This document shows positions 2,533 to 43,896 of a DNA stretch of 49,893 nt, piece by piece (position 1 is the first letter of the stretch; each line of letters begins with the position of its first letter). Source of the stretch: a virus; IMG/VR virus record IMGVR_UViG_3300017605_001164, positions 1 through 49,893 of that record, one strand, 5' to 3'. The position numbers and the translations under genes are program-made. The notes under the pieces are model-generated. The model saw only the letters and a program-made list of their open reading frames with translations. It searched no databases and was not told the origin of the DNA.

Positions 2533-3225
2533 TCAGGCAGCACGAGCGAGGCAGTGCAGCACGCCCGACCCCAGCGTGAGCAGGGCGTTGTTGGTGTACT
2601 GGATGGTGAAACCTGTGGTGGTCTTGCTCCCCGATTTGACCGCGAACACGTAGGGCGTGCCGATGGTCAAGGTGTTGTCCGTCAGGAAGTCCACCTCGTA
2701 GTCGGCGGTCGGTAGCGTCCGTCCCCACGAGAAGGCCAGCTCACGCGTTCCAGCGGAGATCAGCGCCACCGCGGGGATGGTCGCCGTCTTGCCCGCGAAG
2801 TACCCGGCCGGTCCGGGTGCCCCGGTGTCGCCCTTCACGCCCTGGGCACCCGTGTCACCCTTCAGACCGGTGTCGCCCTTGACCCCCTGAGAACCCTGTG
2901 GACCCGGCTCACCCTGAGGTCCCTCCTCCCCTTGCGGACCCGGCTCACCCTGCGGTCCGGGGTCGCCGGTGTTCGGGGTCATCGAGGCGATCGGGAGGTA
3001 GTTCTTGGTGAAGTTCTCCTCCAGCCACGGACCGGCAAACGTGCTGAAGTAGTCGCCCAGGTTGAACGTGAAGGCCACCTCGTGGGTGACCGGTTCGAAC
3101 GACACCTGGAGCATGACCCCGGTGTCGGTGACGACATGGGCGCCCATGTAGTCGGCCATCTCGGTGCCGTTGGTGCCGTCGTACTGCATGAAATCCGTGA
3201 TCGCGAAGTACTGCTCAGCGGGCAT
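2533..3225 (-). CDS. Minor tail protein, collagen-like fibre
   Basis: 230 residues from the ATG at 3225, which has AGGGGG upstream; a longer frame begins at 3249 but has no better ribosome site. The N-terminal ~90 residues form a unique domain that may attach to the tail. Next come about 17 Gly-X-Y triplets ([16 protein letters not shown] type) that should fold as a collagen triple helix, and then a C-terminal ~85-residue beta-rich domain that could be a trimeric tip. Collagen-like repeats are common in actinophage and other siphovirus tail fibres. It is the last structural gene before E1 and the glycosyltransferases, so it may be a substrate for them; that is a guess from position. Confidence 0.85.
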
Positions 3226-3301
3226 CGCGTTCCCCCTCAAATCCGGCATCAGCCTTATCAGGCTGGCATAAGGGGAGGTGGGGAAGATATGGCCCGAATG
3301 A

Positions 3302-3991
3302 TCACCAGGTAGTGACTCCGGGATACGCGGTCACATCGCCCACGTCGTAGACCTCGATGTTGCGGTACGTCCCCGACGCACCCTGATGCGCGCCACCGCT
3401 CGCCGTGCTGGCCGCCGCATACAGCGCCACCGCACCGGACACGTCCGCGGTCGGTGTGAAGTAGATGCCGGACCCGGTCGCGTTGACCACGATGTTGGCC
3501 ACCGGTGTCGGGTACCGGAAGAACTCCCCCAGCAGGGTGGCCGGTCCAGCCCGGTAGGCCCGCAGGTCGGCGTAGCTGTTGGAGTTGCTGTTGGTCACCC
3601 CGCCATGCGTGCGCACCTCGTAGACCCGGTTCGCCACGAACGTCACCGTGTTGGTCACCAGGACCGATGCCAGGCCCGCGGTCAGGCTGGACGATCCCTG
3701 GGTCTGGCCGCGAGCCCAGATGCCGAGCCCGGCACTCTGCGAGCCGGTCGCTGCCCGGCCGATGATCATCAGTGACCCGCGGTAGGACAGCATCTGCACG
3801 ATGGCGCCGACCGAGACCGACGCTTCCTGAAGCCGCGGGACCTCGGGCACGGTGACCCCGGCGACCGTGACATCGCAGGTGCCATCGGCGTTGACCACGG
3901 TCACGATGCCGACCCGCAGGCGCAGGACGTCCTGACCGTCCTGCTTCCCCAGGAGATCCTGCTTGATCTTGCTGAGCCGCGCGGTGTCCAT
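3302..3991 (-). CDS. Minor tail / baseplate-associated protein
   Basis: 229 residues. The N-terminus ([29 protein letters not shown]) reads like the OB-fold start of phage baseplate proteins, followed by a Ser/Thr/Gly-rich beta domain such as a receptor-contacting tip would have. Its ATG overlaps the stop of the upstream gene (TGATG), so the two are translationally coupled. No catalytic motif is visible. Function is assigned from position and composition. Confidence 0.65.
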
Positions 3992-5061: not shown

Positions 5062-7850
5062 AAGTACACCTCCGGGGAGTCGACGTCAGGCCAGGGCTGA
5101 CGGACCATCGAGACCTGAACGACTTTCACATCGGGCGCCGCTGGCCGGACCGTCCATCCGGCCGGAGCGAACCAGCCGGGTTTGCCGATGGCCGGGGAGT
5201 AGTAGAGCCGGTCGGACGCCAGCAGCTCCTCCAGCGCGTTGATCGCGGGCATGCCCTGCACCGCGATGGTCAGCGCCATCTCGTCCCCCTGGGCCGTGCT
5301 TGACACCGTGTGCAGGCCACCGTCCAGCGGGGTGGAGTCGGCGACCAGCTTGGGGTATGAGTCGGTGCGATCGGTGACGACCGTCATGGTGGTCGTCAGG
5401 CTGGCCAACCGGTCCAGGCCGTCGTGGTAGGTGAAGCTGGGGACCGTCGTGCTGGCGTAGTCGGTGGTCTTCAGCTCGGGCACGGGGAGTGGGCCACCGG
5501 ATATGGTGCCGTCCAGCCGGACGAAGTGGACCTCCTTGTAGACCGGGGTGTGGTCGGCGCTTCCGCTGGTCCCGGCCCCGGCCGCGCTGACCGGCGGGAT
5601 CGCCGTCGCCGTGTTCGCGCTCGTGTGATCGTGGCCCGTGGTCGGCGAGCTGCCCAGGTCCCCGGAGGATGGCGCTTCGAAAGATCCGGTGGTCGAGGTC
5701 AGCACGTTGGTCGTGTGCGCGTGCGTCGGTAGATCGTGGTCGTGGTTGGGCAGCGAATGCGTGTGCGTGGCCGAACCGCCGGTGCTGTTGACCGAGTCGG
5801 ATCCAGAGTCCCGGCAGAAGTAGCTGCGCATGTCCGGCGTCCCGTTGGTGCCGTCGCAGAGGGTCAGCAGCGGATCCAGCGAGCCGACCGCCCCGGTGTA
5901 GAGCCCGATGATCCGGGTCTGTGTCCCGCCCCCGGTGTTCCGGAGCACGCGCAACCGCCGGTGGATCGGCTCCAGGGTCGAACTCCCGGTGACCCCGGGG
6001 ATGGACGCTGCGAGGTTGCCGGTGGAGTTGGCGCCGATGTCCATCGGGTGCGTGTGCCGGGGGAGCCACCGCGGGGTGCTGGATCCGAACCCGGCCTCGG
6101 TCGAGCTGGCCGGGTTGCTCAGACCGGTAGCCGCGATCGAGTGGTCATGGGTGCCGCCGGTGTGGGTGTGCGCGTCCACCGAGTGGGCGTGTGAGTCGGC
6201 GCCCGCCGTCCCGCCGCCGTTCCCCGCGGCCGCCGCGCCGCGCAGGTAGCGCCCGGTGGCCAGAGCGTAAGTGCTCCAGCCGGACACGCTCTCGGTCGCC
6301 CAGCCAACAGCACCCGCCGGGTAGGCAGGCTGCGAGCCGGTCGACTTGATCCAGATGACGTCCAGTAGAGGTGGCGTGTTGGCTGCCGGGCTGGTGAATG
6401 CCTGAGTGTTGCCGGAGGCGAACGATGCGCTGGCCCCGGTCGCGCTGGGCCGGGTGTGCGAGTGCGGCTGGTCCGCCTGCGGCTGGCTGGCGCCGTTGAA
6501 CCGGGCAGAGGTGGTGCTGGCGTTACTCGTCCCCGTGGACCCGCCGACGGTGTGGCTGTGCGAGCCGACGGTGTGCTGGTGGAACGGCGTCGAATGGCTG
6601 TGCGACGTGGCTCCGCCGGTGGCGCTGGGCGCGCCGGTACCGGTCGCTCCCCGGGGGAAGTAGCCGTCCAGCGCGGTGACCCGGCTCCAGCCGCTAGGGA
6701 TCGTGCCGACGGTGCCCGGCCAGCCCAGGATCAGGTCGGCCGGGATCGTGCTCGGCAGTTCCACCGAGGTCGAGACGTAGCCCCAGTACCGCACCCGGTA
6801 GGTGATGTCGCAGGACAGGCTTGACACTGCACAGTCAGGACCGAGTTCGTTGTCCAGCTGCGGGATCGCCAGGTCGAGGTAGGAACCGTTGAGCCCGTCC
6901 GGGACGACAGCGATCCGCTGTGACGTGGCGCAATCCTCGCGCCAGACCTCGGCTACCACGTAGTCGTTGTCCCAGGTCTGGCCGCCCGGATTGACCCAGC
7001 TGACCCGGTACCCGCCGAACTCCGGGGTCACGGTGATCAGGGGAGGCGACGGCGGCGGCACGGTGTTGGCCAGCGTGAAACTGACCGTGGTCGTGTGCTC
7101 GAACGGGTCGCTTCCCCGGATCGTGGACCGCACGGTGAAGGTCGCCGTGTAGGCGCCGTTGGCCAGGTTGTCCGTGACCGGGACCGAGGTCGGCGCGGCC
7201 CCCATCCCCGAGGCACTGAACGCGCCGACACTCACCGACCAGTCGAGTGGGGGAAGACCGTCGTAGTCCACACCGCCCAGGTAGAGCGTTGGCTGGGTGG
7301 TGTCGGTGACCGTGCCGCCCGACTGGTTCGCCCCCGCGGCGTCGCGGACCTGTGGGGAGAAGTCAGGCCGCTCCCGGCAGTCGATGTCGACGTAGACCTC
7401 GGAGGTGCGCAGCTGGCTGGCGCCGTCGGTCCAGTTCGCATATCCGCCACCGAGGTTCAGGTCGGCCAGCGCGCCGGAAGTGGCCAGCCCGTAGGCCGAG
7501 TCCTGGAACCACGGTGTGCTCTGCTCGGTGAACGTGGTGCTGACCGGCACCGTCGCATACTCGATGTACTCCGAGGTGCCACGGCCCAGGTCGATATCCT
7601 CGCTCGTGTCGCCCGCGTCGCACCGGATCCTGACCCGGCCCCGGATCCGGTGGCGCTGGTGGTTGGCGGGCGGGGTGTGCGAGCCCAGGCGCAGCGACCA
7701 GTTGTCGCCGTTGTCGTTGATGATGTCGAACGCGATGTAGGTCGAGTCGGAGTTGTCCGAGGTGACCCCGTGCAGCGTCCCGGACGGGGTCGCGACTCCA
7801 GCCCCGGCGTCGTTGGTCGATACCGGGCGGAGCACGTCAGTCTGTGACAC
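5058..7850 (-). CDS. Large tail fibre with three tail-collar-like domains (candidate receptor binder)
   Basis: 930 residues, GTG start. Residues 1-230 share phrases with the minor tail gene at 11231 (TLHGVTSD-NDSTY and PQV-D-GA...PTL...DGLP), so the two are paralogous there. A fibronectin-like stretch (PPSPPLITVTPEFGGYRVSWVNPGG) follows. Then three successive Gly- and His-rich modules appear, each with Phage_Collar-type features: a WxxxxGxVPSGW or DGTNGTPDMR phrase, then alternating His motifs such as HSHSTPFHQH and THTHSLPNHDHD. In known collars such HxH motifs bind metal in the trimer core. The C-terminal ~150 residues are a separate domain. Most likely this is an adhesion fibre. Operator-like site 3 is inside. 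Confidence 0.8.
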   Translation of the reverse strand: MSQTDVLRPVSTNDAGAGVATPSGTLHGVTSDNSDSTYIAFDIINDNGDNWSLRLGSHTPPANHQRHRIRGRVRIRCDAGDTSEDIDLGRGTSEYIEYATVPVSTTFTEQSTPWFQDSAYGLATSGALADLNLGGGYANWTDGASQLRTSEVYVDIDCRERPDFSPQVRDAAGANQSGGTVTDTTQPTLYLGGVDYDGLPPLDWSVSVGAFSASGMGAAPTSVPVTDNLANGAYTATFTVRSTIRGSDPFEHTTTVSFTLANTVPPPSPPLITVTPEFGGYRVSWVNPGGQTWDNDYVVAEVWREDCATSQRIAVVPDGLNGSYLDLAIPQLDNELGPDCAVSSLSCDITYRVRYWGYVSTSVELPSTIPADLILGWPGTVGTIPSGWSRVTALDGYFPRGATGTGAPSATGGATSHSHSTPFHQHTVGSHSHTVGGSTGTSNASTTSARFNGASQPQADQPHSHTRPSATGASASFASGNTQAFTSPAANTPPLLDVIWIKSTGSQPAYPAGAVGWATESVSGWSTYALATGRYLRGAAAAGNGGGTAGADSHAHSVDAHTHTGGTHDHSIAATGLSNPASSTEAGFGSSTPRWLPRHTHPMDIGANSTGNLAASIPGVTGSSTLEPIHRRLRVLRNTGGGTQTRIIGLYTGAVGSLDPLLTLCDGTNGTPDMRSYFCRDSGSDSVNSTGGSATHTHSLPNHDHDLPTHAHTTNVLTSTTGSFEAPSSGDLGSSPTTGHDHTSANTATAIPPVSAAGAGTSGSADHTPVYKEVHFVRLDGTISGGPLPVPELKTTDYASTTVPSFTYHDGLDRLASLTTTMTVVTDRTDSYPKLVADSTPLDGGLHTVSSTAQGDEMALTIAVQGMPAINALEELLASDRLYYSPAIGKPGWFAPAGWTVRPAAPDVKVVQVSMVRQPWPDVDSPEVYL
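6821..6838. promoter_or_regulatory. Palindromic operator-like site 3
   Basis: TTGAC-N8-GTCAG inside the collar-fibre gene. Confidence 0.5.
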
Positions 7851-17277: not shown

Positions 17278-17691
17278 TCAGCCGATGCTGACCCGGAAGC
17301 CCTCGGCGGTGGCCACCTCACGCAGCGCGGTGGCCAGGTAGGGCCGCCCGGCACGCGCCTTCTGGTGGACCTGCCGGGCGTAGACCGTCCGGCCGTCGAC
17401 GGTGAACTTCAGCCGCCCGTTGCCCTTGGCCCGGATGGTCAGCGCGCGGCGCCCGTTGTGCACCGCGGCCGCATAGCGCGCGTCGTAGACCACACCGCCG
17501 ACAACGACCAGGCCGTGAACGGTGGCCGGTTCGATCCGGCCGGTGGACCGCAGCAGGCCCGTATTCACCGGGACCAGGACCTGCGATCGGGCGTGCGTGC
17601 GCCGGATCACCCGGTTAACCTTCTTGCGCGCCTCACGGAGGCCGACCGCGTTGAGCTGCGCTTCATCCACTCGGAGTGTGTGCCGGGCCAT
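17278..17691 (-). CDS. HK97 gp10-like head-tail (neck) protein
   Basis: 137 residues. The layout is that of HK97 gp10-like proteins: a basic helix (REARKKVNRVIRRTHARSQVLVPVNTGLLRST), a beta core (VVVGGVVYDARYAAAVHNGRR) and a C-terminal RPYLATAL helix. These sit at the junction of head and tail. GGAG lies before the ATG. Immediately upstream on this strand is the non-coding RNA island. Confidence 0.8.
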   Translation of the reverse strand: MARHTLRVDEAQLNAVGLREARKKVNRVIRRTHARSQVLVPVNTGLLRSTGRIEPATVHGLVVVGGVVYDARYAAAVHNGRRALTIRAKGNGRLKFTVDGRTVYARQVHQKARAGRPYLATALREVATAEGFRVSIG

Positions 17692-17707
17692 GACTCCAGG
17701 ATACGGC

Positions 17708-17736
17708 TTGACACCTCCCCGGCGCGCCGGTAAGGT
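17708..17736 (+). promoter_or_regulatory. Promoter of the structured RNA
   Basis: TTGACA (17708), 17-bp spacer, TAAGGT (17731). The spacer start CCTCCCCGGC and the downstream TTCATCTCG are shared with the promoter at 43846-43874. Transcription would start near 17743. Confidence 0.8.
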
Positions 17737-17742
17737 TCATCT

Positions 17743-18424
17743 CGTTCAGCCGAAGCGGAGTCAGGGAGTAGTCCCGTCGCCCGGCACTACCTGCGGAGTG
17801 GGCGTACCGACCGATCTCCGTGCACTACCAAAGGGCAATCGGTTGACTGCCGTGAATAGAGCGGTGGAGGGGTAGGGGCCAAGCGATGAGCCGTCCCGAG
17901 CATCACGCCCATCCGGGGAGTCGGCCCACCAGAATCCGGCTGGCGCGAGGGCGTGATCGAAAGATCACGGGGGGCTGCCCGAAGTTCCCTCGCGTCGCAC
18001 CAAAGGGGTGTAGCTCAGTCTGGACAGAGCACCGCCTACCTGCCGCAAGTCACAGGGCCGTTGATCAGGCACCGACTTGCGACCAGGCCCGGCCTGTACA
18101 ACCGGGAAGCTCAGGCGGAGGTCGGGGTGTTCAAATCCCCCCACCCCTACGAAGCGGGGTAGAGGTTCGCTGTCCCCCGCTGGTGGGCGATGCTGGGGCC
18201 GGGAGCGCGGTCCACCCGGAAAGGCCGGGCGTCCTAGGGGGCAACCCCAGCAGCTAAGACGGTCCGGGATCGAGCGACAGCCAGCAGGCGCGCTGACAAG
18301 GCGGCTCTTTCCCGGATCACCGATCACCGGCCGGGGCCTGTCTCCGGTAAACCGCGCACTCGTCTGGCAGGCCCGTGACGCGCTCCACGCCGCAGCCAGG
18401 AGCTTGGCCGGTGATCGGGTCTGA
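17743..18424 (+). ncRNA. Large structured non-coding RNA with embedded tRNA-like domain (novel candidate)
   Basis: An 822-bp gap between connector genes holds no convincing gene but many perfect helices on the plus strand, behind its own strong promoter. Pairings read by eye: 17944-17951 with 17987-17994; 17952-17958 with 17963-17969, closing a GAAA tetraloop; the tRNA-like domain at 18004-18149; 18153-18159 with 18175-18181; 18191-18198 with 18245-18252; 18263-18269 with 18310-18316; 18320-18332 with 18406-18418 (13 bp); and inside the last, 334-340 with 368-374 and 382-386 with 399-403 (add 18000). These nest without conflict. Size, phage setting and the attached tRNA-like part recall the ornate large RNA classes GOLLD and ROOL, but identity is not established. 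The 3' end is uncertain; it could reach 18504. Confidence 0.75.
18004..18149 (+). tRNA. tRNA-like domain with a 70-nt insertion in the anticodon arm
   Basis: The acceptor strands AGGGGTG and CACCCCT pair perfectly. T8-A9, a D-arm (GCTC, AGTCTGGACA loop, GAGC), the anticodon stem CCGCC (18032) with GGCGG (18114), a T-arm with loop TTCAAAT and discriminator A149 are all in place. The T-stem has one mismatch and CCA is not encoded. Between the anticodon strands lie 77 nt instead of 7. They form an 8-bp helix (18044-18051 with 18074-18081) whose loop GGGCC (18055) can pair with GGCCC (18086) as a pseudoknot. No U33 or anticodon can be assigned, so a translating tRNA is unlikely unless the insert is removed. 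Confidence 0.5.
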
Positions 18425-18477
18425 CCCATTGCGATCATGCCAGCGATCGCTGTAAGGTCACGGAAGAGGATATGCGT

Positions 18478-18504
18478 GGGCCCCCCGGCTCAGAACCGGG
18501 GGGC
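18478..18504. terminator. Strong GC hairpin
   Basis: GGCCCCCCGG and CCGGGGGGCT-type arms enclose CTCAGAA. There is no T-run on either strand, as is common for actinobacterial terminators. It could end the minus-strand connector transcript (stop at 18514) or the plus-strand RNA. Confidence 0.5.
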
Positions 18505-18513
18505 TCACTGCTG

Positions 18514-19065
18514 TCAGGATGAGGTGGGGCCTGCGTCCGCGCAATCACATGCCGGACCGCGGAGCGTCACCGGCAACACCCCGCCGACGCAACCACCCTC
18601 GACCGCGACCGGCTGCCACAGGCCGGGGAGAACACGCTGCTTGCGGTTGACCGGGTCAGCGTCGATGAAGCAGCAGATCGCCCGGCGCATCGCGGCCGCA
18701 GCGTCCATCACGCCCTGGGTCACCTCCATCCAGGCGGTCTGTGACGGGATCGCATTCTCGTCCGGGGTCGGCGAGCAGCGGACGATGCCCAGCTCCAGCG
18801 TGACCGCCCAGCCGAGCGTGCCCTGCTTCTGGGCCGCTTCGTCCTGGGCCGGGAACACGGTCGAGCTGGGGTAGAACGAGGCGGGCCGGATCCAGGCCAG
18901 GCCCTCGCAGCACTCGTCGTCCGAAGTTGACAGCAGGAAGTCAACCACGGTGCCGGGCCGGACCCCGACATGCAGCGGAGGGTTTTCCAGCTTGACCAGC
19001 TCCTGCTCGTAGCAGTCGAGCAGCTCCAGGACCAGTGGCATCACGAGCGGGTCAGAGATCGGCAT
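18514..19065 (-). CDS. Head-tail connector (head closure or tail terminator type)
   Basis: 183 residues from the ATG at 19065, which overlaps the adaptor stop (TGATG). The opening LVMPLVLELLDCYEQELVKLENPPLHVGVRPGTVVDFL and the many paired Cys fit a small connector protein in the actinophage neck gene group. Which ring of the connector it forms cannot be told. Operator-like site 5 (18927-18944) is inside. The non-coding RNA island lies just downstream. Confidence 0.6.
   Translation of the reverse strand: MPISDPLVMPLVLELLDCYEQELVKLENPPLHVGVRPGTVVDFLLSTSDDECCEGLAWIRPASFYPSSTVFPAQDEAAQKQGTLGWAVTLELGIVRCSPTPDENAIPSQTAWMEVTQGVMDAAAAMRRAICCFIDADPVNRKQRVLPGLWQPVAVEGGCVGGVLPVTLRGPACDCADAGPTSS
18927..18944. 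promoter_or_regulatory. Palindromic operator-like site 5
   Basis: TTGAC-N8-GTCAA inside a connector gene. Confidence 0.5.
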
Positions 19066-19874
19066 CAGCTGCCCGCCCCGATGACGGTGTAGCGGTCGCA
19101 GACGTCCAGGTCCGGCGACATCACCCGGGGAGGCGACTTCAGCCTCCCCGGATTGAGAGTGGTGATCACGTCGTCCACCATCTTGATCCCGGTCAGGCCG
19201 TCGGCCGGAGCCGGAGGTGACACCTCGACCTCGACACCCTGGCGGCTGAGCCGGGTCATCTTGGCCGGGAGGGAGCACCGGCCGCCCGAGAGCTGCTTGC
19301 CGTACTCACAGGCCAGCAGGCCCGCGGCAGTGGCCAGCGCGTCCGGGACATCTGAACCGATCGAGTAGGTGACTTCAAAAGTCCCCGGCTCTGTGGTGGC
19401 CGACTTGAAATCCTGGCAGACCGGCCAGCACTCGCCGTCTACCCGGACCAGTAACCACGCACCGGGAGCGACGTCGACCCGGTAGGCGCTAGGCGGTACG
19501 ACGTCTCCGTCTACCAGGACTTCGTCGATCGAGGCGACCGGACCGCGCAGCTCGATCGCGCACAGGCTCGCACCACAGCAGGCGGTCACGCAGCCCGAGT
19601 TGAACCAGCGGCCGCCGAACAGGAACGGACCGCCCGGCTGGCCCAGGCCCTCAGCGCCGGGCAGCACCGGGAAGTCCTGGTAGACGATCTCGGCCCCCTG
19701 CGGCCCCTGCGCCGGGCGCACGGTGACCGGGCACGCGCCGAACCGTCGGCCGGTCGCGCCCCAGAGCCAGAGCACAGAGAGCGAGACCGCCTGCTCCTGG
19801 ACGGTCGGCGTGTAGCCGTTCCAGTCTGAGCAAACGTCAGACGGATCGATGTTCCAGTTGCACGGTCCTGCCAT
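19065..19874 (-). CDS. Head-tail adaptor protein
   Basis: 269 residues. The phrases GECWPVCQDF, GTFEVTYSIGSDVPDALATAAGLLACEYGKQL and LSRQGVEVEV...GLTGIKMVDDVITTLNPGRL are those of the actinophage head-tail adaptor, which binds beneath the portal. Cysteines are frequent. The ATG at 19874 lies six bases below TAAGCT, so it is probably leaderless, with a -35-like TGGAAA at a 17-bp spacing. It starts 43 bp from the diverging moron promoter at 19917. Confidence 0.75.
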   Translation of the reverse strand: MAGPCNWNIDPSDVCSDWNGYTPTVQEQAVSLSVLWLWGATGRRFGACPVTVRPAQGPQGAEIVYQDFPVLPGAEGLGQPGGPFLFGGRWFNSGCVTACCGASLCAIELRGPVASIDEVLVDGDVVPPSAYRVDVAPGAWLLVRVDGECWPVCQDFKSATTEPGTFEVTYSIGSDVPDALATAAGLLACEYGKQLSGGRCSLPAKMTRLSRQGVEVEVSPPAPADGLTGIKMVDDVITTLNPGRLKSPPRVMSPDLDVCDRYTVIGAGS

Positions 19875-34199: not shown

Positions 34200-34419
34200 G
34201 AAGGGGTCGAGAGGTCCTGGCCAGCAGGGTCCACCGGGACGCCGGGGCCGGGGAGGATCCGGCCCGGTCGGGCCCTACCGCACCGGGGGAGGCAACACCG
34301 GCGGCGGATCCAAGCACACCACCGGCGGCTGCATGCTGGCCAAGGCGGTCGGCGCGGTCATCCTCGGGTTCATCGCGGCCAGCACCGCGGCCACCTTCCT
34401 GTCCCTGGTGGCCGGGTGA
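34192..34419 (+). CDS. Gly-rich membrane protein
   Basis: 75 residues: a Gly/Arg-rich, probably disordered front (GSRGPGQQGPPGRRGRGG) and a C-terminal transmembrane helix (VGAVILGFIAASTAATFLSLVA). Overlaps the upstream gene by 8 bp. Confidence 0.7.
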   Translation: MSKKGSRGPGQQGPPGRRGRGGSGPVGPYRTGGGNTGGGSKHTTGGCMLAKAVGAVILGFIAASTAATFLSLVAG

Positions 34420-43533: not shown

Positions 43534-43571
43534 GTTCGGGCCCTTCCTTGATCAGGTTGGTCGTTCGGAGT

Positions 43572-43835
43572 GTCTCGGGCCGGGCGGGCGAGTCGGTGTG
43601 GATCGGGATGGCTTGGTCAGTCGGTGCGGTCGGATCTGGGATGGCGCGATCTGTCGGTGCGGGTCGGGTTGGATGGGGTAGGGCCGGTGGGTCGGTGCGG
43701 GTTGAGGGGTGCCGGGTTGGGTAGTCGGTGCGGACGGGTCAGAGCCGGAAGGGGTAGTCGGTATGGGAAGGGCGGTGCCGGGAAGGACCGGGTTGGGTCG
43801 TCGGTATGGGCAGGGCGGGTCGGGCTTGTCGGTGT
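43572..43835. repeat. Degenerate ~33-bp repeats, array 4
   Basis: GTCGGT(A/G)(T/C)GG units at 43592, 43620, 43653, 43691, 43724, 43757, 43800 and 43829. Most spacings are 28-38 bp and three are exactly 33. G-rich on the plus strand. It fills the leader between promoter 43846 and the gene at 43533. Confidence 0.7.
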
Positions 43836-43845
43836 TGCGAGATGA

Positions 43846-43874
43846 ACCTTACCGCCATGCCGGGGAGGTGTCAA
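43846..43874 (-). promoter_or_regulatory. Promoter below the replisome gene
   Basis: TTGACA, 17-bp spacer CCTCCCCGGCATGGCGG, TAAGGT. The start of the spacer and the downstream TTCATCTCG match the promoter of the structured RNA. Confidence 0.85.
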
Positions 43875-43896
43875 GGCAACTCCCCGGCATGATCGA

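Follow-up and report, generated by a model that had tools for sequence, protein, structure and literature searches.

A conserved phage RNA joining a two-stem module to a tRNA-derived domain without an anticodon loop in a head-tail gene cluster

Comparison with related phages shows that the 822-bp gap at 17692–18513 of a viral genome contains a structured RNA with demonstrated conservation over about 235 nt (17915–18149), composed of a two-stem module and a tRNA-derived domain lacking an anticodon loop. Assignment of the rest of the ~765-nt RNA to the same fold is a folding prediction. All coordinates refer to the window, i.e. the whole 49,893-nt stretch analysed (IMG/VR record IMGVR_UViG_3300017605_001164). 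This combination and both covarying families appear to be undescribed, having no counterpart in Rfam or in the literature searched, which left subscription journals mostly outside.

The gap, its promoter and its transcript

The gap is located inside the head-tail gene cluster between two minus-strand genes, one (17278–17691) assigned to the PHROG neck1/tail completion and the other (18514–19278) to phrog_810. Relatives, e.g. phiAsp2, suggest actinobacterial hosts. No credible protein gene is present within the gap in the ORF list, as had been stated in an earlier reading made from the letters and ORFs of this DNA (the sequence-only reading), and the ORFs that cross it (up to 123 aa on the plus strand and up to 157 aa on the minus strand) had no counterparts in the homologous gaps of relatives.

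A perfect promoter, TTGACA-N17-TAAGGT, is found at 17708–17736 on the plus strand, opposing the direction of the late genes. The same reading had called it a consensus promoter, with the head and tail genes on the other strand, and motif counts agree with this: allowing up to 2 mismatches, 7 sites are present in the window, compared with 0.66 expected from shuffled sequences. A near copy is located at 43846–43874 (-), where a 38-bp region (43838–43875, -) is 92% identical. Behind two of the phage promoter copies, at 43550–43845 (-) and about 41990 (-), are long leaders, rich in C and poor in G, in which ACCGAC is repeated and which resemble Rho-utilisation sites.

Judging from the promoter and a hairpin at the 3' edge, the predicted transcript spans 17743–18507 (+, ~765 nt). 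The hairpin (18474–18510, +) is strong, GC-rich and terminator-like with no U-tract, and upstream of it lies a second promoter-like site (18429–18458, +), positioned at the edge of the slot as in relatives. This pair (18429–18510), in which the hairpin follows within about 20 bases, recurs at the slot edge of several relatives. In the 3' region (18150–18428, +), a 13-bp helix (18320–18418) is predicted by folding alone. The stretch 18168–18257 resembles the leader of a protein cargo gene in L003/L004 (about 6650–6745, -), with a local score of 40 versus 32 for the best of 500 shuffles; these 90 nt, ending in CAGCUAA, are possibly a further shared RNA module. An HDV-like ribozyme considered for the same stretch was dropped, since one required helix fails to form in the window.

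Relative to shuffled sequences, the folding energy gave z values of -4.8 for the plus strand and -4.1 for the minus strand. Since the minus strand folds nearly as strongly, thermodynamics alone is no proof of an RNA, and the RNA gene was accepted because of the comparative evidence, i.e. covariation.

The tRNA-derived domain

The domain (18004–18149, +) is arranged in the order acceptor, D arm, anticodon stem, helix Pa (18039–18087, +), helix Pb (18088–18106, +), T arm, acceptor and N73. It retains a 7-bp acceptor (AGGGGTG/CACCCCT in the window, with CGA, not CCA, after N73), the D arm, a 5-bp anticodon stem, the T arm and the elbow. In place of the anticodon loop are UA, Pa, Pb and AAGCUCA, forming a conserved three-way junction; in the window this insert is 77 nt. 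Eight members were identified in distinct phages and several contexts (window, L009, L021, L038, L040, L055, L077 and L123), all those outside the window being IMG/VR contigs, mostly metagenomic. U8-A9, A14, GG or GGT in the D-loop, TTCRA in the T-loop and the C preceding the T stem are kept across members, and a 7-nt anticodon loop with U33 is absent from all eight. The acceptor and the discriminator differ freely between them, making charging by one synthetase unlikely.

A BLAST search of the gap against relatives matched L009 (80% over 153 bp) and, over shorter lengths, L038, L040 and L021, and L055 and L077, with different gene contexts, came from pattern scans. In a blind test, a pattern restricted to the 5' half detected L122/L123, which are identical over the stretch read, and the unsearched 3' half of L123 scored 106 bits on the covariance model. 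With this model, the six aligned sequences scored 120–142 bits and L021 scored 31 bits. Because ordinary tRNAs from two actinobacterial genomes also reach up to 61 bits, a threshold was set for membership, either more than about 100 bits or, for L021, inserted arms read by eye.

A MAFFT alignment of six sequences has 97.7% of its pair cells paired over 29 pairs. Changes on both sides were found in 11 of these pairs, compared with 4.8 in shuffles (reached by 0 of 500), and slid versions of the structure were just 32–50% paired. Adding L123, L021 and one more tRNA-like match raised the number of such pairs to 17, a count leaning towards the model, to which this alignment was fitted. Compensatory changes occur in all six helices and the junction bases are invariant. 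The anatomy described is very probable on comparative grounds, and the tRNA-like domain noticed in the sequence-only reading proved correct, with its limits at 18004 and 18149.

Acceptor, D, anticodon and T stems are present together with the elbow bases, and the predicted minimum-energy fold of the isolated window domain is nearly the cloverleaf-plus-insert structure. The Rfam tRNA model accepts the domain of L021 (36.5 bits), and that of the window falls below recognition. When the fetched loci were scanned for a simple tRNA shape, about 20 matches were obtained in the real sequences and 1 in shuffled sequence. In the window the Pb loop contains UGUACA, and in L021, L038, L040, L055 and L123 it contains UGAUCA, both palindromic; L077 and L009 have no palindromic hexamer there.

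The two-stem module

The module (17915–18003, +) begins with GGGG, followed by stem 1 of 6 bp (17919–17924/17936–17941, +) with the loop CCCACCAGAAT (17925–17935, +), a longer, variable stem 2 (17942–17996, +) and the tail GCACCAA (17997–18003, +), which adjoins the tRNA-derived domain. Ten members were collected (window, L021, L033, L078, L080, L094/L106, L103, L105, L108 and L109), giving the consensus GGGG (GGG in L033), loop CCYACCAGAAU and tail GYACCAA. L021 shares with the window an identical stretch of 28 nt directly upstream of the tRNA-like domain. In the window, L033 and L105, no bases separate the tail from the tRNA or tRNA-like domain that follows it; in L021 and L080, a few bases intervene. 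In L078, L080, L105 and L106 the module is situated in an apparent gene leader at a different genomic location.

With the middle of stem 2 excised and a 4-base spacer put in, 98.7% of the cells are paired, and both sides have changed in 11 of the 15 pairs. As the loop sequence was what retrieved most members, the invariance of the loop partly reflects selection of the sequences, the stem covariation being unaffected; L033, found independently of the loop, has one loop change. Three further matches to the two-stem pattern (L104, L107 and L110) were discarded as they have no second stem and no tail. The sequence-only reading had proposed that its helices be examined for covariation in homologues, and covariation was found for both the module and the tRNA-like domain. 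Its GAAA hairpin (17952–17969) is part of a conserved stem, of which it forms the distal, non-conserved part. Searching the window for sequences with which the loop CCCACCAGAAT might pair in trans gave no match except the loop's own complement.

Homologous slots in relatives

Related IMG/VR phages were gathered through the two flanking proteins. The slot is nearly empty (12–115 bp) in nine loci, including phiAsp2 (L014), and is occupied in L015/L016 by an antisense ORF of 288 aa for a secreted-type protein. Longer slots rich in tRNA-like sequences are present in the window, L021, L022, L025, L030 and L033–L040, some of them also with protein ORFs, and homologous slots differ considerably in their arrangement. 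In the 11 RNA-filled slots, 15 perfect T-arm hairpins were counted on the promoter strand and 0 on the opposite strand, against a background of 0.03 per kb in the remainder of these loci; some of the loci are close relatives and the events are not all independent. The RNA lies on the same strand as in the window. Each filled slot read starts with the same promoter type, and several have a promoter-like site and a hairpin at the far edge. The earlier likening of the promoter to those of morons is supported, as the slot in relatives can contain a protein gene as cargo, preceded by a promoter of this type.

Searches for known families

No Rfam family matched the window at the gathering score, and matches up to E = 10 were at chance level; Rfam searches at relaxed thresholds returned nothing beyond chance-level matches and plain tRNA. 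The sequence-only reading had taken the gap for a large non-coding RNA of the GOLLD or ROOL kind or of a new class. Its structured RNA is upheld by covariation, whereas neither the GOLLD nor the ROOL covariance model matched at the gathering score or up to E = 10, and the tmRNA and group I intron models, which it had also named, found nothing either. A tmRNA was rejected because ARAGORN calls none and pair 3-70 is G-C in the window, not G3-U70; a group I intron in a tRNA, because there is no Rfam match and the 77-nt insert cannot leave a U33 loop; and a decoding tRNA, because the 7-nt U33 anticodon loop is absent in all members. A 91-nt tRNA-Gly called by ARAGORN at 34237–34327 (-) overlaps an ORF and is probably a false positive.

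By DNA similarity, the gap matched named phages only in short tRNA arms and unrelated sequences, and matched nothing in plasmids. The RNAs of the homologues likewise gave no named isolate with the element in the collections searched. A scan of genome contigs with the tRNA-like motif gave 20 matches, 0 of them in a tRNA-like context. No strong match to the model or the two-stem pattern was found in 396 actinobacterial genomes, weak evidence as only 8 candidates per genome were scored on the model.

Possible functions

RNase P, RNase Z, the CCA-adding enzyme, EF-Tu and tRNA nucleases recognise features that the domain retains. As far as can be read from its conserved pairs and bases, it keeps the parts gripped by tRNA-handling proteins (acceptor helix, elbow, T and D arms) and is without what decoding needs (7-nt anticodon loop, U33). 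The explanation that we tentatively put forward is that of an RNA cargo gene, or 'RNA moron', with a non-translating tRNA mimic as its product. The gap, a slot of variable content flanked by two connector genes, would be such a gene; its own promoter would drive the ~765-nt transcript against the direction of the late genes, the core being the module joined directly to the tRNA-derived domain. Since the acceptor and T stems are intact, processing by RNase P and RNase Z is proposed: a cut by host RNase P near 18003/18004 is somewhat probable, and the 3' end would likely be trimmed by RNase Z or exonucleases.

The product would be a stable mimic that ties up a host factor with affinity for tRNA, the most plausible candidate being an antiphage effector that cuts tRNAs. 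Defences that target tRNA, and phage tRNA counter-measures, are established, and their known breadth is the reason for favouring them as the target (PMC10264068, PMC11555353, PMC13096335, PMC12851939). A decoy function is nonetheless doubtful. Nucleases directed at the anticodon loop would miss a domain without one, so that only factors directed at the elbow, variable loop or tail fit a decoy, and nothing like the two-stem module occurs in known tRNA decoys. The location of some members in the leaders of protein genes (L009, L123 and possibly L077) also counts against it and suits a role in cis. That the RNA represents a new modular phage class of tRNA mimics disarming tRNA-targeting immunity, maybe as a dimer through the palindromic loop, is unlikely.

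The main rival, which we consider rather improbable, is a processing or leader element acting in cis, the domain serving as a cut site for RNase P/RNase Z or a site for a regulatory protein and thereby maturing or protecting the RNA or controlling the gene behind it. This would fit L009, where a gene for a secreted protein has the domain in its 5' leader, L123, where its position in a gene leader is like that of the module in L078, L080 and L106, and L077, where a Shine-Dalgarno-like GGAGG abuts it. However, in the window, L021, L038 and L055 the RNA is followed by a hairpin and no evident same-strand protein gene, and a plain cutting site needs no conserved three-way junction. The palindromic Pb loops of the window and five other members could instead kiss copies together in a scaffold or RNA-only assembly, with the tRNA-like part as a structural or displayed element, and GOLLD and ROOL do form homo-oligomers (PMC12286853). 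Such an assembly seems quite unlikely, as L077 and L009 do not have the hexamer, UGAUCA may be merely inherited, and there is no fold in common with GOLLD/ROOL.

The odd tRNA-like arrays of some phages (L097, L098 and L033) might point to decaying tRNA genes or array remnants without present function, an explanation largely refuted, and very unlikely, given the compensatory changes in six of six helices, the invariant junction bases and the identical plan of inserted helices in distant phages. Although the insert is at the tRNA intron position, a working tRNA from which it is spliced out is highly improbable: joining the flanks (U-A ... A-A-G-C-U-C-A) never yields a 7-nt U33 loop, the stems of the insert are conserved, and no group I intron matches. 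It is scarcely credible that the gap has no functional RNA and is a spacer rich in GC or a protein gene that escaped detection. The opposite strand also beats shuffles and ORFs reach 157 aa, but this leaves the covariation and the strand-specific T-arms unexplained, and insertions between homologues are not multiples of three.

Relation to known systems

Neither large phage RNAs nor tRNA mimics are new in kind, and the reason for the presence of tRNA genes in phages has been under debate for decades. The tRNA-like structures of plant RNA viruses are cases of viral tRNA mimicry; the window domain differs in being internal, encoded by a DNA phage and provided with a classical cloverleaf top half, and is not situated at a genome 3' end. 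As in tmRNA, a tRNA-like domain has its anticodon arm replaced by other structure, but it has no G3-U70 and no tag reading frame is called, it has a full D arm with a D stem and the 77-nt insert, and it is called by neither ARAGORN nor Rfam. Messenger RNA leaders that mimic tRNA exist, e.g. the E. coli thrS operator, which resembles L009 and L123 in having a tRNA-like fold in a leader, whereas no same-strand gene follows the domain in the window.

Like the window RNA, GOLLD and ROOL are large structured phage RNAs of unknown function, and tRNAs are sometimes found within GOLLD linkers (PMC12286853); here there is no covariance-model match, and the conserved core is a tRNA-like domain without an anticodon loop. 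Phage tRNAs that evade defences are also phage-encoded tRNA folds and a possible answer to tRNA-cutting immunity, but they decode, with altered loops (PMC10264068, PMC11555353), which the window domain cannot do. As the tRNA fold is under selection after loss of the anticodon loop, decoding cannot be its purpose, and recurrence of the design in unrelated phages suggests, on comparative evidence, that tRNA look-alikes are used beyond translation. Non-translational use of phage tRNAs thus becomes directly testable. Two covarying RNA families are added that have no match in the Rfam release searched and are missed by standard tRNA finders, and cargo slots in phage structural operons can carry RNA in place of protein genes.

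Other elements in the relatives

Small secreted-type proteins are encoded behind RNA elements in the same slot in L009 (4670–5175, -) and L022 (about 3120–3545, -). A tRNA-like array surrounds the L077 domain in L097 (1677–2700, G009), where ARAGORN calls two only. Two more enlarged tRNA-like genes, both missed by ARAGORN, are present in a 94-kb phage contig (L098, 1178–1477, G017), one with an anticodon arm of ~50 nt and the other with enlarged anticodon and variable arms. The motifs CCAGAGGG...GGAUAGACG, GAGGCWGGAMCACGUCGUCAC and GGUUUCGCGGUC recur in L033, L034, L035, L078, L080, L099 and L108, where they are situated in leaders and slots.
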